IMG/VR virus record: IMGVR_UViG_3300005827_000091
Coordinates: 1 to 26,455 of that record
Source of the DNA: a virus
Length of the DNA: 26,455 nucleotides
Reading direction: 5' to 3' (one strand)
Part shown: piece after piece, positions 469-25,710 of the stretch
How the letters are laid out: each line of letters begins with the position of its first letter
How positions within the stretch are numbered: position 1 is the first letter of the stretch
Program-made: the position numbers and the translations under genes
The notes under the pieces: generated by a model
Seen by the model: only the letters and a program-made list of their open reading frames with translations
Databases searched by the model: none
What the model was told of the DNA's origin: nothing

Positions 469-1710
469 ATGGCTAATATCATGCGTACTACGCAGTACGT
501 TTTGAACGACGTGTTCGTTCGTTTCTGGAACTCTTTATCATTTGCTCGCACAGCTAATCGCAACCTCGAGGCAGACTTTAAAAACCTGACTTTCGCGACT
601 GGCGACACTTTAAACTATCGTTTAGAAGAACGTTACATGGGTGGCCGTGGCGCTACCGCTGTAGCAGAAGCACGCGTACAGGTAATTAGACCTTTATCAA
701 TTACCGATCAATTCCATATTATGCTCGACTACACCGGTTGGAACTTAACGTTTGACCGCGCACGTGACGAGCCCTATTTGGAAATGGCTAACGCTCCTCG
801 CGCTAAACGCCTGGGTAACCTAGCAGAGCAATTTATTGCATCTGAAAATTTCCAGTTAAAAACTTATCAAGCAGTCGGCACCCCTGGCGTTCCCGTTGAT
901 TTTGACGTGATTTCGCTTTGTGATGCTTACATGACTGAATTAGCTATTCCCGAAGATGGCAAACGCTATTGCGGCGTTCCACCTCGCGTAGCTTCAAACC
1001 TGAACACCGATTTACAAAACTCATTCAATAACACCGTTAACACAGGCGCGTTAATTGATGGTTTCATTGGTCAATTGTCAGGTTTTACTTTCTTCAAAAC
1101 CAACTTCTTGACCAGACAAATTGCTGGTACAGGTCAAGCAGCTGGTGCGCCTCCTGCGGGTTTCCGCTTAGGCGGAACAATCACCAACGGCCCAATCAGC
1201 TCAGGCAATACCTTTGTTGTGACTGGCTTAGTAATTAACTCAACCGCTTTCCGCAAAGGCGATATTATTGAAATCGCTGATGCCGCAGGCGTGTTTATGA
1301 TTAACCCGCTAACCTATCAACCACTCTCACAAAGAGCACAGTTCGTTGTAACTGCTGACTCATTGTCAGATGGCGCGGGTAACGCAACTGTTTTTGTAAG
1401 CCCTGAAATTGTTGTTGGTGGCGCTCGCGCTAACATTTCCGCTGCAATTCCTAACGGCGCTCAGTTGTTATTGTCTTTAGACCACACCGTGAGTATCGCT
1501 TATCACTCACAAGCGGTTGTATTTGCTGCACCTCCTATCAAAGAATTGAAAGGCGGCGTGGAAGCAGTTACCACCTACTCAGACCTTTACAAGCTATCTT
1601 TGACTTACACTCTTGGTGCAGACATTCGGAATTATCAACAATTAGACCGAATCGACTTCATCTCCGGCGTGCAAATCAACGCAGAGTTTGCAGTTAGAAT
1701 TCGCTCCTAA
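469..1710 (+). CDS. Major capsid (coat) protein, P22 gp5 type
   Basis: This 413-residue protein forms the icosahedral head shell. It is close in length to P22 coat (430 residues). The recognisable part is the N-terminal half, with 'FVRFWNSLSFARTANR', 'GDTLNYRLEERYMGGRG' and 'DYTGWNLTFDRARDEPYL', the pattern of the P22 coat family (HK97 fold with an extra insertion domain). The ATG at 469, giving 'MANIMRTTQYV', is preferred over an in-frame TTG at 448 because P22-type coats start 'MAN' and GGGG lies about 10 bases upstream. The gene has its own leader and is closed by a strong terminator, which fits a need for very high expression compared with its neighbours. Confidence 0.93.
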   Translation: MANIMRTTQYVLNDVFVRFWNSLSFARTANRNLEADFKNLTFATGDTLNYRLEERYMGGRGATAVAEARVQVIRPLSITDQFHIMLDYTGWNLTFDRARDEPYLEMANAPRAKRLGNLAEQFIASENFQLKTYQAVGTPGVPVDFDVISLCDAYMTELAIPEDGKRYCGVPPRVASNLNTDLQNSFNNTVNTGALIDGFIGQLSGFTFFKTNFLTRQIAGTGQAAGAPPAGFRLGGTITNGPISSGNTFVVTGLVINSTAFRKGDIIEIADAAGVFMINPLTYQPLSQRAQFVVTADSLSDGAGNATVFVSPEIVVGGARANISAAIPNGAQLLLSLDHTVSIAYHSQAVVFAAPPIKELKGGVEAVTTYSDLYKLSLTYTLGADIRNYQQLDRIDFISGVQINAEFAVRIRS

Positions 1711-1721
1711 CTGTTTTTTAG

Positions 1722-1759
1722 CAGGGCCACTTTTGATCATTTTTGTGGCCCTGTTTTTT
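1722..1759 (+). terminator. Rho-independent terminator after the coat gene
   Basis: A perfect 9-bp GC-rich stem (1722-1730 CAGGGCCAC with 1745-1753 GTGGCCCTG) closes a 14-base loop and is followed by six T (1754-1759). It starts 12 bases after the coat stop codon and ends 15 bases before the next start. It probably ends most coat mRNA and lets some transcripts read through to the head completion genes, which are needed in few copies per virion. Confidence 0.88.
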
Positions 1760-1774
1760 AACTAAGGAATAGCA

Positions 1775-1960
1775 ATGACCGAATGGGTTTCATATTGCGG
1801 AAGGCAAGTGCCGAAAGAAAACTTTCGTGTCTTCGTCTATTCGCTAAACGATGAACAAAAAGTCGTAAATTCATGGGATGAATACCAAGAAGCCATTTCA
1901 AGCGGTGTCTGGTTCCCAACTAAAGATTTTGAAGAAGCTCCGAAAAAAAGGAAAGCTTAA
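1775..1960 (+). CDS. Small conserved phage protein of unknown function, head module
   Basis: This 61-residue protein is preceded by AAGGAA at the right distance and its stop directly abuts the next start at 1961, so translation is probably coupled to the tail accessory gene. It contains 'TEWVSYCGRQVPKENFRVFVY', has several aromatic residues and ends with a basic 'PKKRKA' tail. Small proteins sit at this position between coat and gp4-type genes in many P22-like phages, but no role can be read from the sequence. A head-tail joining or assembly function is a guess from position only. Confidence 0.75.
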   Translation: MTEWVSYCGRQVPKENFRVFVYSLNDEQKVVNSWDEYQEAISSGVWFPTKDFEEAPKKRKA

Positions 1961-2677
1961 ATGCCAACAATTAAGCAGTTTGCCAGGGGTTGCTATAATT
2001 TAATCAACGCCCACAATCCCTCGATGACGCTTATTGACGATGAGCTTTCAATAGCAATTGACATTATCAATCAGAATTTACAATCATATGCCTCGACAGG
2101 CTTAATGATTACAATTGCCAAAACTATCACGACACCAATTGTTGCTGGCCAAAATGAACTAACATTTGGCGCGGCTAATGTTATTCCAGTGCCAACAATT
2201 ACCCAGGGCCGATTAGCAAATATGGATTCCGCATGGCTAACCCTAACCGGCGTGGATTATCCATTAATCTATATCTCAAAAGGGGAATTTAATTCCGCAT
2301 GGAAATATAGCCCATTGCAAGGCTTGCCCCGATTTGTAGTTTTATACCCAGAAGTCGACGTGACAAGATTAAGATTGTATCCGGGGCCAAGCCAAGGATA
2401 TCAATTCTCTTTGCGTGGAAAATTCCAATTACCCACGCTTGAATCCGATGATGATATGGGGATTATCCCTCAGTACCAATTATTATATTTAAAATTTGCC
2501 TCTGCAAAACAAGTTGCCTTTGAAACCGGCAGAGCTGATGCTTGGACACCTAAGCTTGAGGCTGAATTAGTTCGCTTAACGGATTTGATGGAATCAGCAT
2601 CAGAAATGAATCTGTCTATTGTTGGTGATAGAGAAAGTATGCTCAATGGTAGCTGGCGTGTGCAGGCAGGTATCTGA
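1961..2677 (+). CDS. Tail accessory factor / head completion protein, P22 gp4 type
   Basis: The 238-residue product fits the P22 gp4 family, which binds under the portal, extends it and closes the filled head. The N-terminal part 'FARGCYNLINAHNPSMTLIDDELSIAI' is followed by 'INQNLQSYASTGL', the usual helical start of the family; the middle is beta-rich with 'LRLYPGPSQGYQF', and the C-terminal part is helical. It is longer than P22 gp4 (166 residues), as in many distant relatives. An AAAGGA-type ribosome site lies in the end of the preceding gene. The stop overlaps the next start by one base (TGATG). P22 gp4 is reported to have peptidoglycan hydrolase activity; whether this one does cannot be judged here. 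Confidence 0.85.
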   Translation: MPTIKQFARGCYNLINAHNPSMTLIDDELSIAIDIINQNLQSYASTGLMITIAKTITTPIVAGQNELTFGAANVIPVPTITQGRLANMDSAWLTLTGVDYPLIYISKGEFNSAWKYSPLQGLPRFVVLYPEVDVTRLRLYPGPSQGYQFSLRGKFQLPTLESDDDMGIIPQYQLLYLKFASAKQVAFETGRADAWTPKLEAELVRLTDLMESASEMNLSIVGDRESMLNGSWRVQAGI

Positions 2678-4437
2678 TGCCCATAACAGATTTTCCAATA
2701 TTTTCATATTACGACCGCCAGCGGTTTGCGCAATTTGGCCCTATGGATTGCGCAAACTTTTACGGAATCCAGGTTAAGGATTCAAAAAAGGTTCAGGCAC
2801 TATACCCATGCATGGGTAGAAAGCATATTGAATTCATGGGTCAGAACAAATTAGTTTTCACCTCTGAACCTCGCGCAATGTTCAAAACTATCAACTTCAT
2901 GTATGTGATTATCGGCACTCAGGTAATCCAAATTGATAGGTATTTTAATGAAAAAGTTATCGGTAACGTAGCGCTAGGAACGCAGGTTTGGTTTGATTAT
3001 CTAGCCGTTGGAACCACAATTTACGGTTTACTAACTGACGAGCAAAATTGCTTTATCATCACAGAAGATTCAAACCCGGTAACGATGGTAGCTGTAACAG
3101 ACGCTAACAGACCAACTTCACCGCAATACGTTGCGGCATTTGGAAATAGATTTGTAGTAAGCGGCAAAGGCTCCCCTGATTATTATTTAACCCAAATCAA
3201 TTTAGGAACGCCTGCTAATTGCTTTACCGTTGACGGTGCACCATTATTTAACCGAGCGTCCGGTATTATTGTTCAATTTGGCGTACTGCATAATCAGCTT
3301 TATATATTCTGCAATTTCCAAACTGATGTATGGGCCAATATACCGTCTAACATCACATTTGCGGGCGCAACAAGGCAATTCCCATGGAAGCAAAACACCT
3401 CTTACAATTTCGACTTTGGGTTATATGACCCTTTCAGTTTAAGCATAGAGTTTGGAATGATGGTTTTCTTGGCCCAAAACAAAGCTGGCCTTGTAAGCTT
3501 CATGATGTCCACTGGGCAAAGACCAGAGGATATATCATCCCAAGCAATTAACGTTTTGCTAGAAAACTCTCGCTCAAGCACAGATGAGGAAAGCCCATTT
3601 TTAATAGGCCCGACTAACGGATTTCTCTATCAATACGAAAACACCATATTTTACCGAGTGTCCGCAGGCAGTTACCTTCATTACGGCGAATTAGACAGAA
3701 ATGATTCTGCTAATTGCTTAGAGTTTAACTTTTCAACCGGAACTTGGGGGCGAGCCATTGAGCTTAATGGCGAAAGAAATCGCATTCAAAAACATGTGTT
3801 CTTTAACAACAAGCACATTGTTTCTGTTCAAGATGACGGCGCGCTGTATGAAATGGCCGGAAACATATACCGAAACGAATTAAGGCGAGCCGATACCGCA
3901 TCACAGGCACCGAACGCCTTTGTTAAATACCCCATGCGCTATGCATTAGTTACAAAACCAATATTTCAGCCGGACTACTCAGAATTTAAAACTGAATACA
4001 TTGAAATTGATTTTGTATTCGGCGACAAAACCTTTTATCAAAATGAAACCGCATTTGATAACACGGTATTTGTCATCACAGAGGATAGCGACCGGTGCGG
4101 ATGCCCGATTTATGTCATCACAGAAGATGCAAATAATGGTCAACCTGTATTTGTTATTACAGAAGACGGCAATACGCCTACTTTCGATGATATACATTAC
4201 AATCAATTATTTAAGCCCTCTATTAATCTATATTTCTCCGATGATGGCGGTATTACTTTTTATCCTACGGCAACTCATGAATTTTCTAGACTGGGTCAGT
4301 ATAGATGGCGTATGCGCTGGTATAGATTGGGCGTTTCGCGTAACAGGGTTTACAAATTAATCTGCGTGAGTTCCGCTCCAATTGTTATCCTTGGGGCAGT
4401 GCAAAGCACATCTCGCACAAGCGGAGGGGCTAATTGA
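2677..4437 (+). CDS. Packaged DNA stabilisation protein, P22 gp10 type
   Basis: This 586-residue protein matches the gp10 family, which plugs the portal after gp4 and holds the packaged DNA. Typical pieces are the start 'PITDFPIFSYYDRQRFAQ', 'DCANFYGIQVKDSKK', 'GNRFVVSGKGSPDYYLTQ' and 'NCLEFNFSTGTWGRA'. It is longer than P22 gp10 (472 residues), partly because of an insertion at residues about 464-500 with three close copies of a '(F/Y)VITED' motif; a fourth, 'FIITEDSNP', lies near residue 126. The start overlaps the gp4-type stop by one base and its own stop overlaps the next ATG by one base, so the three genes are translationally coupled. Confidence 0.9.
   Translation: MPITDFPIFSYYDRQRFAQFGPMDCANFYGIQVKDSKKVQALYPCMGRKHIEFMGQNKLVFTSEPRAMFKTINFMYVIIGTQVIQIDRYFNEKVIGNVALGTQVWFDYLAVGTTIYGLLTDEQNCFIITEDSNPVTMVAVTDANRPTSPQYVAAFGNRFVVSGKGSPDYYLTQINLGTPANCFTVDGAPLFNRASGIIVQFGVLHNQLYIFCNFQTDVWANIPSNITFAGATRQFPWKQNTSYNFDFGLYDPFSLSIEFGMMVFLAQNKAGLVSFMMSTGQRPEDISSQAINVLLENSRSSTDEESPFLIGPTNGFLYQYENTIFYRVSAGSYLHYGELDRNDSANCLEFNFSTGTWGRAIELNGERNRIQKHVFFNNKHIVSVQDDGALYEMAGNIYRNELRRADTASQAPNAFVKYPMRYALVTKPIFQPDYSEFKTEYIEIDFVFGDKTFYQNETAFDNTVFVITEDSDRCGCPIYVITEDANNGQPVFVITEDGNTPTFDDIHYNQLFKPSINLYFSDDGGITFYPTATHEFSRLGQYRWRMRWYRLGVSRNRVYKLICVSSAPIVILGAVQSTSRTSGGAN
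4066..4173 (+). repeat. VITED repeat insertion inside the gp10-type gene
   Basis: Three copies of a hydrophobic strand plus 'VITED' follow one another at intervals of 14 and 13 residues, separated by short variable turns; the first turn contains 'CGC'. The DNA of the copies is similar but not identical, which points to an old or selected repeat. A single related copy lies near 3052-3078. The pattern suggests stacked beta hairpins. Confidence 0.7.
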
Positions 4438-4730
4438 TGGCAATATTTTTAGAGCGCGTTAGCTCTGCTCCATTAAATGCAGATGATTTGTCAGATGAAT
4501 TGGACAATTGGTTTTCAACTTCGGTAGATTCTTTAAATGAAACAATCGATGACATTCAGACGGCTTTTAACGAGTTTGCAGCGCCGCCGCTTACTCAGGC
4601 AGAAATAATTGCTATTGCTCCAGCTGCCCAAGACGGTCGTTTTTGGTATTGTACAGATTCAGTGCCACCTGTTTTTGTTGGCAAAGAGAATGGCGTATTA
4701 GTTAAATTCACAACAACGCCGTTCCCGTAA
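4437..4730 (+). CDS. Small phage virion-associated protein, unknown function
   Basis: The ATG at 4437 overlaps the gp10-type stop by one base; the TTG at 4434 would add one residue and is less likely. GGAGGGG lies about 10 bases upstream. The 97-residue product has an acidic helical first half ('DDLSDELDNWFSTSVDSL') and a compact second half with 'QDGRFWYCTDSVPPVFVG', 'NGVLVKFTTTPFP'. That C-terminal pattern is one I associate with small tail-region proteins of P22-like phages, but I know of no assigned function. Its place between the head plug and the ejection proteins fits a minor virion or tail-assembly role. Confidence 0.7.
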   Translation: MAIFLERVSSAPLNADDLSDELDNWFSTSVDSLNETIDDIQTAFNEFAAPPLTQAEIIAIAPAAQDGRFWYCTDSVPPVFVGKENGVLVKFTTTPFP

Positions 4731-4739
4731 GGAATTATC

Positions 4740-5387
4740 ATGACTAACATGCTATCAAGCTTTTTAAATCCTGGGAAAGCCTACAAAAAGGCCGGCAGAG
4801 AAATGGATAAATACTACCAACAAGGCCAAGCGGCTTTGAATCCATTTATTGAACGCGGCGCATCGGCTTATGAGCCTATGAATAATGCTATGAATGCATT
4901 ACTTGACCCAACCGCTTTGCAGGGACAATGGATTGATAGTTATGAAACCAGCCCTTGGGCCCGAGACTTAATGAGCAGGGCATCTTCTGAAGGCATGAAT
5001 GCAGCAAGCGCCATGGGATTGATTGGTTCAACCCCTGCCCTGCAAGCAATGCAAGCTGGAAATACTCAAATTGGCAATGCCGATAGACAAGCCTATCTTG
5101 ATGACATTATGAATAAATATATGTCCGGCGCTCAAATGGCTCAATCTCTATACGGCTCAGGTCAAAATGCCGCAATGCAATTTGGTCAAAATGCCATGAA
5201 TCAAGGTCAACAAATGGGTCAAATGGCTTACGCCCAACAAGCTGCGCCGGGACAAATGCTGAATAATTTAATTAACACCGGAATTGGAGCAGCCGTCCCT
5301 ATGTATGGCATGTCAAAAATGGGCGGCTGGAATACTGGCGGCGCATATAATCCCATGGGCGGCGGTAACAGGATTGGGGGTTATTAA
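4740..5387 (+). CDS. Internal virion / DNA ejection protein (p7/p14-like)
   Basis: The 215-residue product starts 'MLSSFLNPGKAYKKAGREMDKYYQ' after a few residues and continues with 'NPFIERGASAYEPM', 'SPWARDLMSR' and 'SAMGLIGSTPALQAMQAG', a pattern common to the small ejection proteins of podoviruses. The C-terminal third is rich in Gln, Met, Gly and Ala, ending in a Gly-rich tail. Such proteins are packed inside the head and injected with the DNA to help form a channel through the envelope. GGAATT lies 9 bases before the ATG. It overlaps the following gene by one base, and three ejection-type genes in a row match the P22 arrangement. Confidence 0.75.
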   Translation: MTNMLSSFLNPGKAYKKAGREMDKYYQQGQAALNPFIERGASAYEPMNNAMNALLDPTALQGQWIDSYETSPWARDLMSRASSEGMNAASAMGLIGSTPALQAMQAGNTQIGNADRQAYLDDIMNKYMSGAQMAQSLYGSGQNAAMQFGQNAMNQGQQMGQMAYAQQAAPGQMLNNLINTGIGAAVPMYGMSKMGGWNTGGAYNPMGGGNRIGGY

Positions 5388-18015: not shown

Positions 18016-18663
18016 ATGGCAATAACAAATATTTCCCGTGACTGGGGCGTTGACCCGCAAATCGTTCGTATGACTACTACGGACACATTGGGAACCATCT
18101 GCACGACTGGATATTGGACAACCCAAAAAGCCGCATTATTAGCAATCAATCGCGGTGATTTTGAATGGGTTTCCACCGACATGGTTTTAATCGCCTACAA
18201 TGGCGGCAAAGGCTTTTTTACATGGGATGCGGCAACTTTAAGCTTCTTGCCTGCCGGCTACGGAATGACCCAAGTAGCTGTTACAAGCGCTCAGATTCTT
18301 GGTATGTATGCAGCTCAGGTTCCAATTGTACCTGCCCCAGGAGCAGGAAAATTAGTAATTGTAGGTAGAAATACCTACACCTATTTATTCGGCACAACTC
18401 AATATGCGGCTGGCGGCGTAATTGGTTTAGAATACGGGTTAACCGCAGCATTAGCAGGCCCCGCAGCTTCTACAACTTTAGCTGCCGCTACTTTTAATGG
18501 ATATGCAGCAAGCAATACTTTTGAATTAACCCCTGATAATACGAACGTTTTAGCAAACGTTATTGGACTGGGTATTTCATTGGGTAACCAAACCGCTGCA
18601 TTCACAACTGGTGATGGCACATTGTTAGTAAACCTCGAATACAACATTGTTAAAGCCGCGTAA
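18016..18663 (+). CDS. Fibre-like virion protein, member 1 of a paralogous pair
   Basis: The 215-residue protein begins 'ITNISRDWGVDPQIVRMTTT' and continues to 'FEWVSTDMVLIAYNGG.GFFTWD', a compact N-terminal domain of about 75 residues that recurs in the next gene. The C-terminal part (about 85-215) is beta-rich with many Ala, Thr and Asn, and ends 'LLVNLEYNIVKAA'. The strong ribosome site AGGAGA precedes the ATG. I recognise this N-terminal domain as common in phage virion clusters, without an assigned function; decoration or fibre attachment is plausible. Confidence 0.65.
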   Translation: MAITNISRDWGVDPQIVRMTTTDTLGTICTTGYWTTQKAALLAINRGDFEWVSTDMVLIAYNGGKGFFTWDAATLSFLPAGYGMTQVAVTSAQILGMYAAQVPIVPAPGAGKLVIVGRNTYTYLFGTTQYAAGGVIGLEYGLTAALAGPAASTTLAAATFNGYAASNTFELTPDNTNVLANVIGLGISLGNQTAAFTTGDGTLLVNLEYNIVKAA

Positions 18664-18672
18664 GGATTTAAT

Positions 18673-19329
18673 ATGCCAATCACAAGCATTTCTAGAGACT
18701 GGGGTGTAAACCCCAGTATTGTAAGAATCATAACTACCGACAATCTTGCAACGATTACGGCGGCAAATTATCTCAATACGCAAATTGATGAAATTCAAGC
18801 TTTAAATCGTGGCCCATTCGAATGGGTAGAGCGTGACTTAGTTGCTATTGCCTATAACGGTGGCGAAGATTATTTTACCCGTGATGCCGCAAATAATACC
18901 TTTGTTGTTGACGTTGTCCCGGTCGGAGCAATTCCTTTGGCAAGCGCCCATATTCTTGTTGGTAACGCTGCGGGAATTGGTACTGATGTCGCGATGACTG
19001 GCGACATTGCAATTAACAACGCGGGCCTAACGACTATTCAGCCAGATTCGGTTGATAAAGCAATGCTTAATCCAACGGTTAGACCTTCACATATGATTGT
19101 TTTTGCTGGTCAATTAACCACCGTTGGTGGAGCGGCTGCCGAGGCATTTGCAGTTGCGGGCGCTGTTGCTCTAACTGATCGTGCTTTTGTGCAAATCGTT
19201 GATAATGGCACAAACAACGTAACTGCCTTACAAGCAGTTGTGACCAATAACGTTTTAACCGTGACATTCTCAGCTGACCCTGGGGCAGATACGGTTTTTA
19301 ACTATCAATTAATTAGAGCTACTGCATAG
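18673..19329 (+). CDS. Fibre-like virion protein, member 2 of a paralogous pair
   Basis: The 218-residue protein shares the N-terminal domain of the preceding gene ('ITSISRDWGVNPSIVRIITT', 'FEWVERDLVAIAYNGGEDYF') but has a different middle: 'SAHILVGNAAGIGTDVAMTG' followed by 'AINNAGLTTIQPDSVDKAM', a pattern seen in trimeric fibre shafts. The end is beta-rich ('NNVLTVTFSADPGAD'). AAGGATT lies upstream. A shared attachment domain with different C-terminal parts suggests that both proteins dock on the same virion site. Confidence 0.65.
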   Translation: MPITSISRDWGVNPSIVRIITTDNLATITAANYLNTQIDEIQALNRGPFEWVERDLVAIAYNGGEDYFTRDAANNTFVVDVVPVGAIPLASAHILVGNAAGIGTDVAMTGDIAINNAGLTTIQPDSVDKAMLNPTVRPSHMIVFAGQLTTVGGAAAEAFAVAGAVALTDRAFVQIVDNGTNNVTALQAVVTNNVLTVTFSADPGADTVFNYQLIRATA

Positions 19330-21989: not shown

Positions 21990-22658
21990 TTAAGCCCTTA
22001 AGTATGCCATTTTGTCATAATCCGCGGAGGTTAGTTCTGGCACAATTACCGGAACATATCGATGAACAGTTATGCCGTTGTCAAATAAGAACATTTCTAT
22101 TCTTTCTTGCATTTCATTTGCTTTAATAAGCAATTTATTAATTACGCTATCGTCGCGCTCAATTCTTTGAACGTGTCCTTCCAATCCAGTTACGCGGGGG
22201 TCAAAACTAATAAAATCATTCCACTCTCGTTGCGCAACAAACATCTCCCATTGCATTTGATAGATAATTTCACTGTCTGGCCCATTGTCACGATAATATA
22301 AATGATTTTTAGAAGTAGGGCATTTAATTTGCGCCATACCATTCTCACCAATTAATAAATCAGGCGAGCAACCAAATATATTATCTTCATCTTCAATGAA
22401 TCCGCAAACTGCAATGTCTTGCTTTGTGTGATTCATATACCAATCAGCGGCGTTTTCTTCGTTATCAATTCCCCACTGCATAGCGTCATTGATATGACCC
22501 TCTGTGACAGTTCTAGTAATTGTTTCCGCCAACAATTCATAGTAATAAGTTTTAAATTTTGCAGGAGTCATTAATTTATGAGCATTGCTACCAGTAATTT
22601 TCCCCAATCTTAACTGAAACCATGTTGCCGAACGTTGGGCGCAATTATGAATAATCAT
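21990..22658 (-). CDS. YqaJ/lambda-type recombination exonuclease
   Basis: The 222-residue protein fits phage exonucleases that resect double-stranded DNA ends to leave single strands for an annealing partner. The N-terminal 'RSATWFQLRLGKITGSNA' is typical of the YqaJ family. The PD-(D/E)xK core is visible as 'SPDLLIGENGMAQIKCPTS': D100, Q110 and K112 have the same spacing as D119, E129 and K131 of lambda exonuclease. The usual Glu is Gln here (codon CAA). 'IIYQMQWEMFVAQREWNDFI' continues the fold. It overlaps the Erf-type gene by one base, with AAAAGGTG upstream, as expected for a two-component recombinase. Confidence 0.85.
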   Translation of the reverse strand: MIIHNCAQRSATWFQLRLGKITGSNAHKLMTPAKFKTYYYELLAETITRTVTEGHINDAMQWGIDNEENAADWYMNHTKQDIAVCGFIEDEDNIFGCSPDLLIGENGMAQIKCPTSKNHLYYRDNGPDSEIIYQMQWEMFVAQREWNDFISFDPRVTGLEGHVQRIERDDSVINKLLIKANEMQERIEMFLFDNGITVHRYVPVIVPELTSADYDKMAYLRA

Positions 22659-23329
22659 TATTTCACCTTTTCATCTATTGCGCGGTTGCACACTCTAACA
22701 GTCTTGTTGTAATTTTCCTCTGTTAATTCTGAAAGTGATTTAATGTTAAATCGCTCGCACACTCGCTCGTTTGTGTAATTAGCTAAAAGAATTAGCTCTT
22801 CAAGTTTTGATTTTAATTCATCATTAAAAACCCATTTTGGTTTTTCTGGCGCTTTTTCAGCTTGCGGATTTGGCTTTTGTTGAGCTTGCGGGAATCTTTG
22901 CTGTGGCTCTTGCGTATATGATTCGGCGTCATTATCGTCATCAGTTTGGGTAAAACCTAGTATGCTTGTAAGGCAATAACGCCGAGCGTAAGAAATCGCA
23001 CTACCCATTTGCTGAGCCACATTAATAACTTCTTTTCCATCGCGAGACATAATTTTAACTAACGGCATGAACATTGATGATGATATCCATTCGTTAGAAG
23101 TGTGCATCAATATATTATTAATAGTAACGCCCGTTGCATCGGAGCTTTCTGGCATTTGACTAATAGATAATCCATGCTTATGCATCAAAGGGCGAGCTAT
23201 TTTTAACACGGCCTCAAGGTCTGCATAGCTATGACTGCGGGCTGTGCTTCCTTTAAATGCGTCCGTAATCTCTCCCTGCACATCCGAAAGAGCTTTAGCT
23301 AAATTTCCAATATCGTCTGACTTGTTCAT
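22658..23329 (-). CDS. Erf-family single-strand annealing protein
   Basis: The 223-residue product matches the Erf family, ring-forming recombinases that bind single-stranded DNA and anneal complementary strands. Family features are 'STARSHSYADLEAVLKI' followed by 'ARPLMHKHGLSISQM', and 'NVAQQMGSAISYARRYCLTS' leading to 'ILGFTQTDDDND'. Residues about 135-165 form a Gln/Pro-rich linker, and a helical C-terminal domain follows, often used for protein contacts in this family. It is the first gene of the leftward operon, directly downstream of the control region, and probably works with the exonuclease in genome circularisation and recombination. Confidence 0.88.
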   Translation of the reverse strand: MNKSDDIGNLAKALSDVQGEITDAFKGSTARSHSYADLEAVLKIARPLMHKHGLSISQMPESSDATGVTINNILMHTSNEWISSSMFMPLVKIMSRDGKEVINVAQQMGSAISYARRYCLTSILGFTQTDDDNDAESYTQEPQQRFPQAQQKPNPQAEKAPEKPKWVFNDELKSKLEELILLANYTNERVCERFNIKSLSELTEENYNKTVRVCNRAIDEKVK

Positions 23330-23621: not shown

Positions 23622-23759
23622 ATGAATTGGCTATCAATACTAGGGATAGTTGTTTTTTTCCTAACAAATGTAATTGGCACGATTTTAATATGTTGGTTAA
23701 TTAATGCAATTGGAGAAAAATACGATGTTGATGGAATACAAGATAGCAAACAAAGTTAA
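23622..23759 (+). CDS. 45-residue single-pass membrane protein
   Basis: AAGGGAATAAAC precedes the ATG, two bases after the preceding stop. The product 'MNWLSILGIVVFFLTNVIG' continues 'TILICWLINAIGEKYD' and ends with a polar tail; the hydrophobic stretch is about 28 residues, so one membrane helix is likely. It overlaps the next gene by 35 bases. The function is unknown; small membrane proteins of early operons often act on the host envelope or on superinfection, but this is inference. Confidence 0.6.
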   Translation: MNWLSILGIVVFFLTNVIGTILICWLINAIGEKYDVDGIQDSKQS

Positions 23760-24003
23760 TTCTATTTTACGTAATATTCGGGACGAAAAAATGAATAATA
23801 TTTTAATACACACTGATAATCAAAAAGTTGTACACGTTATAAAGGAAATAAACTTAAATCAGGGATGGCACAAAAGAGTTATATCAATTGGCATTTCAGA
23901 AAATAACAACCCTGAAACCACAGTAAAAGCGTGTTTTGAGAATAAAGAAAAATTAAAAATGTTAATTTCCATTTTGCAAAGCCACCTTGAGGAAATGGAA
24001 TAA
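23725..24003 (+). CDS. Hypothetical small early protein
   Basis: The start at 23725 (92 residues) follows GGAGA at ten bases and is preferred over ATG 23704, which lacks a good ribosome site. The protein contains 'KIANKVNSILRNIRDEKMNN', 'DNQKVVHVIKEINLNQGWHK' and 'ENKEKLKMLISILQSHLEEM', a mixed alpha/beta pattern, basic in the first half. The stop overlaps the next ATG by one base (TAATG). No family recognised. Confidence 0.62.
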   Translation: MLMEYKIANKVNSILRNIRDEKMNNILIHTDNQKVVHVIKEINLNQGWHKRVISIGISENNNPETTVKACFENKEKLKMLISILQSHLEEME

Positions 24004-24188
24004 TGGGTAAATTTGCGGCTTTTGTGCCAGTTTTGTTTTTAATATTTTTAACATTAAAGCTGACCAATCTTATTGATTGGTCATGGTTTTGGGTTTTATC
24101 ACCTTTAATAGCGGTTGCTTTGTTTTATGCAATAGCGTGTATTATTGGGATGGTTGTAACTATGAAGCATCTCGGGAAAATAGATTGA
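24003..24188 (+). CDS. Small two-helix membrane protein
   Basis: The 61-residue product has two hydrophobic segments: 'FAAFVPVLFLIFLTLKL' and 'WVLSPLIAVALFYAIACIIG', joined by a Trp-rich loop 'NLIDWSWF', and ends 'MKHLGKID'. It overlaps both neighbours by one base, so it is translated with them. Size and topology would allow a holin-like or superinfection role, but its early-operon place argues against a late lysis gene. Confidence 0.62.
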   Translation: MGKFAAFVPVLFLIFLTLKLTNLIDWSWFWVLSPLIAVALFYAIACIIGMVVTMKHLGKID

Positions 24189-24301
24189 TGACTTTTATCC
24201 TTGCAATAATTGCATTTTGCTCTTGTATGTGGCTCGGCCCTTGGGGCGGTATAACTGTAACAATTTTAACCTTTTTATTAATGGCGGCGCTAAATGAATA
24301 A
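24188..24301 (+). CDS. 37-residue hydrophobic membrane peptide
   Basis: The ATG at 24188 overlaps the preceding TGA by one base. The product 'MTFILAIIAFCSCMWLGPWG' continues 'GITVTILTFLLMAALNE' and is almost entirely membrane-embedded, probably as two short helices around a Gly-Pro turn. A longer frame with upstream ATG exists from 24077 but overlaps the preceding gene too much. Function unknown. Confidence 0.5.
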   Translation: MTFILAIIAFCSCMWLGPWGGITVTILTFLLMAALNE

Positions 24302-24503
24302 AATAATTGATTACGTGGTTATTTGCAGCTCTGATGAGGAAATTATTCAAGAAGAAATTATTGAATATGGCAAAAAAGGTTACGTGCTTGCTGGTGGACT
24401 GTCTGTATCACAGCAGATAAACACTCATAATGAAGATTGTGAATGCTTTGATATATTGTATCAAGCCATGGTGAAATATGAATCTGACAACACTAATAAC
24501 TGA
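24294..24503 (+). CDS. DUF1737-like small protein
   Basis: The 69-residue protein reads 'IIDYVVICSSDEEIIQEEII', 'EYGKKGYVLAGGLSVS' and 'DILYQAMVKYE'. This matches the order of DUF1737 proteins: a first strand, a Glu-rich helix, 'G(W/Y)...GG.SV' and a final '(Y)QAMVK' strand. The domain's biochemical role is unknown. It overlaps its upstream neighbour by eight bases and its downstream neighbour by 26 bases. Confidence 0.65.
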   Translation: MNKIIDYVVICSSDEEIIQEEIIEYGKKGYVLAGGLSVSQQINTHNEDCECFDILYQAMVKYESDNTNN

Positions 24504-24708
24504 ATTGCTTAGCATGTATCGAGCGTATGGTGATATGCCTGTTTTTGTAGACGCGGATAATTTAATCAACGGCCCAAAAACATGTGATTTTAAAATCAAC
24601 ATGGTTGCATACACGACAAAAGCAATTGACCCTAATTGCATATCAGTTGAAAAAGAAGCAGCGGTGTTAATAGTTAGTGGCTACGATGCATTTAAAGGTA
24701 TTAAATAA
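24478..24708 (+). CDS. YGD-motif small protein, array member 1
   Basis: The 76-residue protein opens with 'LTTLITELLSMYRAYGDMPV', the first of five such N-terminal helices in this operon, each followed by (Y/H)GD or a variant and a beta strand. The rest is a beta pattern with 'TTKAIDPNCISVEKEAAVLI'. GGTGA is the ribosome site. It overlaps its upstream neighbour by 26 bases and the next start by one. Confidence 0.62.
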   Translation: MNLTTLITELLSMYRAYGDMPVFVDADNLINGPKTCDFKINMVAYTTKAIDPNCISVEKEAAVLIVSGYDAFKGIK

Positions 24709-24926
24709 TGAAAATTAGCGAACTACAAGCCCAGCTTGAGGCGATAAAACAGGAATATGGCGATCTTCCGACTATGATTATGGACACATGCGGAATAAGT
24801 TTTCATTTATCAATAGGTCACGCCAAACTTTACACCGGGGAAGACTTCGTGGTTTTCGGAAGTGTGTCAGTACAAAATAAAAACTTAAGACCTTATTTAC
24901 ATGAGGTAAATGATGATAATCAGTGA
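24708..24926 (+). CDS. YGD-motif small protein, array member 2
   Basis: This 72-residue protein begins 'MKISELQAQLEAIKQEYGDL' then 'PTMIMDTCG', with the same helix-YGDLP-strand layout as its neighbours, and continues with 'EDFVVFGSVSVQN'. AAAGG precedes the start. The family is common among small phage proteins; I know no assigned function. It overlaps the next gene by 17 bases. Confidence 0.65.
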   Translation: MKISELQAQLEAIKQEYGDLPTMIMDTCGISFHLSIGHAKLYTGEDFVVFGSVSVQNKNLRPYLHEVNDDNQ

Positions 24927-25113
24927 ACTCGAATCGAAGCTAAAAGAACTGAGAGAAGAACACGGGGATTTGCCGGTTTATCAGGCCCATAGCTCCGATA
25001 ATGAATCAGGTTATTTCGAATCTTTGAGAATTAACTTTGAAGACCTAGTATTTTTTGACTCGGAAGAAGACAAAGATTCAAACATTCGGTGTGTAGCTAT
25101 AGACTTTAGGTGA
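24910..25113 (+). CDS. YGD-motif small protein, array member 3
   Basis: The 67-residue protein reads 'ISELESKLKELREEHGDLPV' followed by 'YQAHSSDNESGYFE'. It is the clearest match to member 2. The second ATG at 24913 fits the GAGGT site slightly better than the first at 24910. It is acidic, with 'DSEEDKDSN' before the last strand. Confidence 0.65.
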   Translation: MMIISELESKLKELREEHGDLPVYQAHSSDNESGYFESLRINFEDLVFFDSEEDKDSNIRCVAIDFR

Positions 25114-25117
25114 TTAA

Positions 25118-25303
25118 ATGAGAGTAACGATAGAAAAATTCAACGACTGGATTGACGAAATCATCAAAGAATTCGCACATGACATAAATGACCAACGGGG
25201 TGAGACTGGCTATGCTAACTCCGTTGAGAAAATTAACGACGAAGCATATTTAGATTGCGCAAAATTAATTAAAGAACGGTTTAATGAGGAGTTTTTATTA
25301 TGA
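25118..25303 (+). CDS. Small acidic helical protein within the YGD array
   Basis: The 61-residue product lacks the YGD motif and is helical: 'VTIEKFNDWIDEIIKEF', 'GETGYANSVEKINDEAYL', 'DCAKLIKERFNEEFLL'. AGGTGA lies just before the ATG. It overlaps the next start by four bases (ATGA). No family recognised. Confidence 0.62.
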   Translation: MRVTIEKFNDWIDEIIKEFAHDINDQRGETGYANSVEKINDEAYLDCAKLIKERFNEEFLL

Positions 25304-25503
25304 AAAACAAACAACTTCAAGAATTTCTAGCGCAATATCCCGACGATTTGAGAGTAGATTTGCATTGCGCCAATTATCACACAGGGCAAATTTACCAATA
25401 TGAATGCACGTCAGTTGATTTAGTAAAAAGAGAATTTACAGTTCCAGGATACAAAGGCGTGGAAGAATTTAAATTTATAATTTTAAATGGTAGGGCGGAT
25501 TAA
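25300..25503 (+). CDS. YGD-array related small protein, member 4
   Basis: The 67-residue protein starts 'KNKQLQEFLAQYPDDLRVDL', a variant of the helix-YGDLPV opening with 'YPDDLRV'. It continues 'YQYECTSVDLVKREFTV' and 'EEFKFIILNGRAD'. GAGGAG is the ribosome site. Its stop abuts the next ATG. Confidence 0.6.
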   Translation: MKNKQLQEFLAQYPDDLRVDLHCANYHTGQIYQYECTSVDLVKREFTVPGYKGVEEFKFIILNGRAD

Positions 25504-25710
25504 ATGAAAGCCTCTCAATACATAAAAGAACTACAAAAGCTCATAGACGAATATGGGGATTGCGAGGTTTGCGACCAACAATGGGACGAGGACGCTAAAG
25601 AATATCGAAGCTACCCTGCAAAACCGGACTTTTGGCACAGAGTTAGAATAAATTCAAAGGATAAAGTATTTACAATGAACTGCTTTGGCAGCGTGCCGGA
25701 GGAAGGATGA
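25504..25710 (+). CDS. YGD-motif small protein, array member 5
   Basis: The 68-residue product begins 'ASQYIKELQKLIDEYGDCEV' and then 'CDQQWDEDAKEY', followed by 'HRVRINSKDKVFTMNCFG'. It keeps the helix-YGD-strand opening, here with Cys in place of Leu-Pro. It overlaps the next gene by four bases (ATGA). Confidence 0.62.
   Translation: MKASQYIKELQKLIDEYGDCEVCDQQWDEDAKEYRSYPAKPDFWHRVRINSKDKVFTMNCFGSVPEEG

Follow-up and report, generated by a model that had tools for sequence, protein, structure and literature searches.

The window, by which we mean the whole stretch of DNA analysed here (one IMG/VR virus record of 26455 bases), carries a mixed array of five tiny proteins that very probably comprises four members of the GD branch (PHROG 10692 and its neighbours) and one member of a sister family, the YPDD branch. 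The array is real and exceptional among the records that we surveyed. The family itself is widespread; a literature text search by family names or letters yielded no paper on it, and general searches were likewise empty. The two families are probably related: their members have a common front end, and the rest of each protein perhaps binds a different host partner. The identity of these proteins is well supported; we infer that they function as accessory binders.

The array belongs to a phage with a P22-type capsid protein. The capsid gene (448-1710) matches phrog_283 (E 5.3e-31), and its product shows about 27% identity with the protein annotated as 'P22 coat protein' in Vibrio phage VvAW1. 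Relatives of this capsid protein are found in 50 IMG/VR loci, 20 of which were retrieved as contigs of 16-38 kb each; the one with the most genes in common with the window (G002) is largely collinear with it. Two genes shared with G002 (23704-24188) are followed by the array on the plus strand, the genes of which are closely spaced or overlapping. The features of the region are as follows:

21990-22658, minus strand: RecE-like exonuclease, adjoining the Erf-like gene
22658-23329, minus strand: Erf-like annealing protein, adjoining the RecE-like exonuclease
24294-24503, plus strand: flank gene, 69 aa, with likeness by eye to a 59-aa gene in the same place in G002
24478-24708, plus strand: P1, GD-family microprotein, 76 aa, YGD at residues 17-19 (MNLTTLITELLSMYRAYGDMPV)
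24708-24926, plus strand: P2, GD-family microprotein, 72 aa, profile score 30.5 bits
24913-25113, plus strand: P3, GD-family microprotein, 66 aa, from the second ATG; the upstream alternative at 24910 gives 67 aa
25118-25303, plus strand: 61-aa gene within the array, without the motif and not a family member
25300-25503, plus strand: P4, sister YPDD-family microprotein, 67 aa (MKNKQLQEFLAQYPDDLRV)
25504-25710, plus strand: P5, GD-family microprotein, 68 aa, YGD at residues 17-19 (MKASQYIKELQKLIDEYGDCEV)

The five ORFs of 67-76 residues reported in the preliminary description are all present where it placed them; the tandem run that it saw is interrupted by the gene at 25118-25303, which lies between P3 and P4 and lacks the motif. 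This gene has no PHROG at E≤1, is absent from the window's GD and YPDD profile matches, and has one weak Pfam match that falls below the cut-off. The start of P2 and the stop of P1 overlap by 1 nt. P3 more likely starts at 24913 because a GAGGT lies 5 nt upstream of that ATG; read from there, its HGD falls at residues 17-19, in the same register as the motifs of P1, P2, and P5. The window has no Rfam match at gathering score and no tRNA, and promoter-like sites occur in it at the level of shuffled sequence. The flank gene and its G002 counterpart have GG[LI]S[IV]...QAMVKYE in common, as judged by eye, and the pair is absent from the tblastn matches at E≤1e-3. Between the window and G002 the exonuclease is 73% identical and the Erf-like gene only 38%. 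Elsewhere in the window, the neighbouring ORFs 18016-18663 (215 aa) and 18673-19329 (218 aa) may be mutual duplicates, since they match overlapping places in several relatives.

The N-terminal 22 residues of P1, P2, P3, and P5 form a common module, in which Gly-Asp occupies residues 18-19. On a profile built from residues 1-24 of 57 IMG/VR sequences, with the window left out, P1, P3, and P5 score 13.7, 32.7, and 22.9 bits, and P2 has the score listed above; the maximum over 10507 shuffled ORFs is 6.7 bits. As judged from these scores, chance is excluded as the source of the start of P2, P3, and P5, as it also is by the swapped control described below, and it is very unlikely for P1, the weakest GD member. 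The features that mark the branch are an M-K-[IV]-S-E-L start, L10, GD at 18-19, and V22; P2, P3, and P5 display them clearly and P1 more weakly, with departures at MNLTT in P1, MIIS in P3, MKASQ in P5, and T22 in P2. The four proteins also match PHROG 10692 weakly, over the first 23-29 residues only (E 3e-3 to 2e-4, with 0.0021 for P1), and, like the complete outside pattern members (48-93 aa), they are short ORFs (66-76 aa) with the motif at the very start. The opening plan attributed earlier to all five genes is thus upheld by the profile search for these four and fails for P4, which is without the GD motif. The accompanying remark that the remainders differ proved correct: past residue 22 there is no clear sequence likeness among the four GD proteins, and global alignments of their C-terminal parts give z values of -0.6 to 3.3, the highest being for P3-P5. 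Pfam leads on single proteins (DRTGG, DUF2150, DUF7880, and others) fell below the curated cut-offs and were set aside.

Beyond the window, a DNA pattern for the GD module has 79 matches in IMG/VR viral contigs, all in short ORFs: 77 are complete, with 48-93 codons, and two run off the retrieved sequence. A control pattern with the Gly and Asp codons swapped has no match in the same contigs. Positions left free by the pattern are conserved in 57 non-redundant members (S4 in 49/57, E5 in 37/57, and I7 in 47/57), and the proteins are mostly acidic, with a median pI of 4.7 (n=57) and values of 4.35-4.84 for P1, P2, P3, and P5. The same pattern has 12 matches in genome contigs, whose carriers include Streptomyces, Methylomonas, Prevotella, Saccharibacteria, Planctomycetota, a Methanobrevibacter MAG, and Weissella. 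Among annotated phage records at E≤10, P2 has 22 matches and P5 has 16. From these we examined 12 named phages, 11 of them chosen for start-anchored matches; all 11 of those matches begin at an annotated CDS start, and every one is a 'hypothetical protein'. In the remaining phage, S-SSM5, the match falls inside a CDS and the profile finds no member. The named carriers examined include phages of Vibrio, Achromobacter, Pseudomonas, Mycobacterium, Sinorhizobium, and Stenotrophomonas, along with a Psychrobacter phage and a crAss-like phage.

Existing resources record this module as a set of families of 'unknown function'. At E 0.01, phrog_10692 is matched by 61/61 aligned GD members and phrog_6992 and phrog_38414 by 47/61 each, and the N-terminal module of these three PHROGs is the same as that of the array's GD proteins; two PHROGs annotated 'helicase' are matched by 2/61 (21074) and 1/61 (13643). 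Used as a search family, phrog_10692 also finds matches in 6/14 control genomes at E≤10, and for this reason its weak matches were not counted as members. The module spans very different phages and one Methanobrevibacter MAG contig, yet 0/61 members match Pfam, NCBIfam, or PADLOC at E 0.01. A sequence search of solved structures gave no convincing GD relative (best E 0.43), and a search for a family member with a tested function found none. Positions 25000-73400 of mycobacteriophage LeBron (of 73453; the phage is treated in PMC13148394) hold no GD member, the best score being 5.1 bits. None of EagleEye, Sheen, 20ES, CRB1, LadyBird, and Lokk is named in the main text of PMC7474061.

The closest relatives of P2 and P5 lie in phages that carry one copy each, unlike the window array. 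For P2 these are the hypothetical proteins VP14_106 of Vibrio phage VPMCC14 and VnaP_063, from phages of about 130 kb; P2 is 39% identical to VP14_106 over 61 aa by tblastn (E 5e-3) and 44% over 55 aa by blastp. For P5 the best relative is WNO48624.1 of Achromobacter phage shaaii_LB5, at 52% over 44 aa, with likeness continuing past the motif. P1 matches four Pseudomonas phage records at E 0.3. In the 20 capsid-related contigs, tblastn at E 1e-3 matched only the P2 start, in one contig. Searches of viral contigs gave no relative for P3 and only itself for the G002 member; tblastn in phages gave none for P3 (E 10), P4 (E 1), or the member at locus L132 (E 1), and megablast none for the window's first 25000 bases or for locus L180. 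A strict pattern around YGDLPV was uninformative, with three matches and no nearby ORF past the filter. A Cys-rich loop (NCCCC, SCCCY, NCCYGD, and similar) follows strand 1 in several GD members, namely those at L189 (G002):2515-2715, L107:3001-3171, L126:1191-1337, L184:187-390, and L113:132-305; to judge from these residues, they are possibly a metal-binding sub-branch.

P4 is missed by the GD-branch profile. It scores 34.0 bits on a profile of 31 IMG/VR YPDD sequences, for which the shuffled maximum is 7.4 (15905 ORFs), and it has the residues typical of that branch (L6, L10, and Y13-P14-D15-[DE]16). A pattern for its start matched at least 119 stretches; in the 80 of these loci that were checked, 75/82 matches are stop-terminated ORFs of 40-110 codons, and the other seven are shorter, longer, or cut ORFs. 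The YPDD family appears from sequence to follow the same helix-turn-strand plan as the GD branch, with a helix about three residues shorter and YPDD as the turn. When the alignments of the two branches are compared, the first 27-30 columns or so align (hhalign probability 72%, P 3.5e-5); this link is suggestive only, and the two branches may form one superfamily. phrog_5861 is matched by 4/61 GD and 2/23 YPDD members. The sister family corresponds to PHROG 7217 and others; 6/23 of its members match PHROG 7217, P4 itself matches none, and 3/23 weakly match Pfam DUF6225 (best E 0.007).

Copy number was surveyed in whole records, many of them fragments, for 57 of the 79 pattern loci besides G002: 51 hold one GD member, six hold two, and none holds more, and in two of the six (G026 and G035) the second match covers only 15/24 positions. 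Ten of the 12 named phages have one member, one has two, and one has none. Among the 20 capsid relatives, G002 has two GD members, G012 and G016 have one each, and 17 have none at E 0.01; G011 has one departing GD-like member with YGN, uncounted at that threshold, and G011 and G012 each have one YPDD member. The four GD members that the window holds in 1.2 kb are the largest number seen among the surveyed records, and they are exceptional in that surveyed carriers mostly have one and at most two. With both branches searched at 10 bits in 171 loci, four other loci hold groups: L187 has six candidates, of which four score 13.6-22.0 bits; L215 has four; L270 has three, one of them scoring 14.6 bits; and L196 has three, which score 10.2-12.2 bits. 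Mixed groups are thus rare, yet not unique to the window. A DNA pattern for tandem pairs had no match, which says little because P1, P3, and P5 depart from the start that it requires and it is blind to the window's array also.

AlphaFold models of P2 and P3 bear on how far the likeness extends. The P3 model, from 32 aligned sequences, has a helix at 3-17 and strands at 22-25, 45-49, and 59-64, with moderate confidence (mean pLDDT 73.5, pTM 0.51); the P2 model has a confident helix at 3-17 and two low-confidence strands (pTM 0.32). A Foldseek search of BFVD with the P3 model places mostly small uncharacterised phage proteins on top (best E 0.012, probability 1.00). The second and third matches are proteins of phiM9 (58 aa, TM 0.66) and cr116_1 (89 aa, TM 0.56; TM by query length), the same phages and lengths as members found by sequence. 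No fold match of either model falls below E 0.001, that of P2 has no meaningful match, and in the PDB search with P3 the best E is 2.1 and 0/136 chains reach Z 2. The fourth BFVD match of P3 is V9SGP1 of Tunisvirus fontaine2, a giant virus of amoebae (E 0.028, TM 0.53). Since P3 is predicted to have a helix and three strands, its likeness to relatives probably goes beyond a helix. The case in which the proteins have only a common helix, which the preliminary description had set against its own reading, therefore probably does not apply to P3, with its three strands and BFVD matches; the P2 model shows the helix alone. It is highly improbable that the array proteins have nothing in common except an amphipathic helix at the start that arose by chance or convergence. 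The C-terminal halves, not clearly alike by sequence, and the P2 model, confident in the helix alone, are what such a reading would lead one to see. Against it stand the fixed register and the conservation at pattern-free positions, the empty swapped control, the GD and YPDD profile scores above shuffles, and the fact that the fold matches of P3 span most of the chain.

The preliminary description regarded the array as an expansion by duplication, a claim that comparison with other phages does not support. Each GD member has its best score outside the array: for P5, 39.7 bits with the Achromobacter phage protein against a highest array score of 21.6; for P2, 38.9 bits with a Vibrio phage protein against 30.0; for P3, 36.2 bits with a member at L134 (70% over 23 aa) against 30.0; and for P1, 28.9 bits with a member at L184 (50% over 26 aa) against 19.2. 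Against 88 outside members, array neighbours rank 45-89, except for P2-P3, at 8 and 14, although this test is biased toward outside scores, as the outside members are mostly picks by a consensus pattern, and 11 were chosen by similarity to P2 or P5. The first 66 nt of the array genes are identical at only 30-41/66 positions, and the only repeat common to two of them is 13 nt long, around the starts of 25118-25303 and P5. Recent local duplication is argued against in that most members are no closer to one another than to proteins of outside phages. A tandem duplication after which the C-terminal parts diverged rapidly is a reading that we consider unlikely. It would fit a tandem set on one strand and of one length class, the P2-P3 ranks (the two align over 66 columns at 30%), the z of 3.3 for the C-terminal parts of P3-P5, the 13-nt repeat, and the local duplication seen in sister-family arrays at L270 and L215; it sits poorly with the higher outside scores of P5 and P2 and the dissimilar gene starts. 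An old duplication, above all of P2 and P3, may have contributed. We favor a set that would have been gathered from anciently diverged lineages rather than produced by recent duplication. The repeat search also revealed a second short family inside the gene before the array.

Two other loci illustrate how starts can be shared. Two adjoining YPDD genes at L270:2272-3011 are identical at 54/57 nt from the ATG to codon 19, with identity falling to 5/30 in the upstream DNA and 4/23 just after the block. Two YPDD genes at L215:1214-2255 are identical at 52/57 nt over the same span, with 9/30 upstream and 7/23 just after it. One of the L215 genes is a mosaic of its neighbour's start and the remainder of a third gene (30/58 aa identical, z 13.7). 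Among pairs with starts at least 82% identical, the remainders are alike in 7/7 GD and 89/91 YPDD pairs, the two exceptions being these within-genome pairs. Of 90013 pairs of ORFs scanned, each on one strand and within 6 kb, from 205 sources, 13 have at least 38/48 identical start bases; the least similar remainders among the 13 are those of the L270 and L215 pairs, followed by L163 (z 3.6) and a YPDD pair at L237 (z 4.6). The upstream edge alone is not peculiar, as ordinary paralogues, such as those at L157, show the same unlike upstream DNA (starts 45-47/48 identical, upstream 5-12/30). The window genes show no such recent start sharing. Conceivably, a scaffold start cassette of about 57-66 nt occurs across phages of many hosts and is joined to new C-terminal parts, with arrays as the joining sites, a doubtful proposal for which the evidence is two cases in which an assembly error is possible. 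Such joining would resemble the shuffling of receptor gene segments, an analogy as speculative as the proposal itself, and it is no less questionable whether that process, long ago and followed by drift, gave rise to the window's mixed array of five genes. If true, cassette joining would be a route for phages to new small effectors.

The explanation that we prefer overall, though we hold it tentatively and at somewhat less than an even chance, is an array of accessory binders with a constant core and a variable face. The models suggest an alpha-beta-beta-beta fold for the family, and the conserved helix-turn-strand start would probably be its scaffold: the helix would pack on the sheet, with GD (or PDD) ending the helix and leading into strand 1, and the remaining strands and loops would form a variable binding face. 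Each member would then be a small accessory binder of a different host or phage partner, candidates being a nuclease, a polymerase subunit, or a defence protein; that the members bind host proteins seems to us nearly an even matter. The proteins are probably made early in infection, an assumption from gene position. Five such genes kept together offer a compact test bed for the scaffold's binding.

An anti-defence role in particular is one possibility among several, and not a likely one. By analogy, the members could be diversified inhibitors, each blocking a different variant of one defence, a reading that we likewise consider unlikely. It draws on the constant start and variable rest, the presence of several members in a locus that is not conserved in relatives, a single Tad2-like protein encoded near members in other carriers (1/132 neighbours), and analogous proposals for co-resident anti-CRISPRs and for small proteins of the T-even Ip loci. 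PMC12373910 considers GmrSD variants the likely target of all accessory proteins from the two T-even Ip loci. Those loci group small accessory proteins, some of them anti-restriction, and the array resembles them as a cluster of small divergent proteins, a likeness in working only. Conversely, carriers are mostly single-copy, we found no solved inhibitor related by sequence or fold, and no member matches PADLOC, the last of which says little because that library holds mainly defence rather than anti-defence proteins. Alternatively, the start could be a signal for targeting or docking, either for packaging into the capsid or to one phage protein, with the remainder as unrelated cargo; we rate this as improbable. 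A short N-terminal sequence common to the T4 internal proteins directs them to the capsid, and the L215 and L270 gene pairs, near-identical over their first 57 nt and unrelated thereafter, have the expected form. However, conservation in the GD family extends past the helix and turn to strand 1; a single small domain is what the P3 model and several of the BFVD matches show; and the module is present in very different phages.

Gene neighbourhoods were compared through ORFs of at least 90 codons within 2 kb, with 132 scanned and 18 of the 150 selected omitted. Among the 25 of 160 families listed, no partner recurs: the commonest PHROGs are a DNA helicase and a Sak4-like annealing protein (3/132 each), followed by thymidylate synthases, DNA methyltransferases, and others with two each. 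The neighbours in other carriers are often DNA-metabolism genes, and head proteins occur too.

Shared starts also occur at two other loci. On the minus strand of L163, at reverse-complement position 2398, an ORF starts like a neighbouring gene family (MKIYVVGSSKNKFLPL...) and its end resembles, by eye, the GD protein encoded on that contig; the two parts join near 'GDNIEVLSC'. At positions 752-5122 of Vibrio phage vB_VhaP_PG11 (L103), seven small annotated proteins start with MSR[LI] and then differ.
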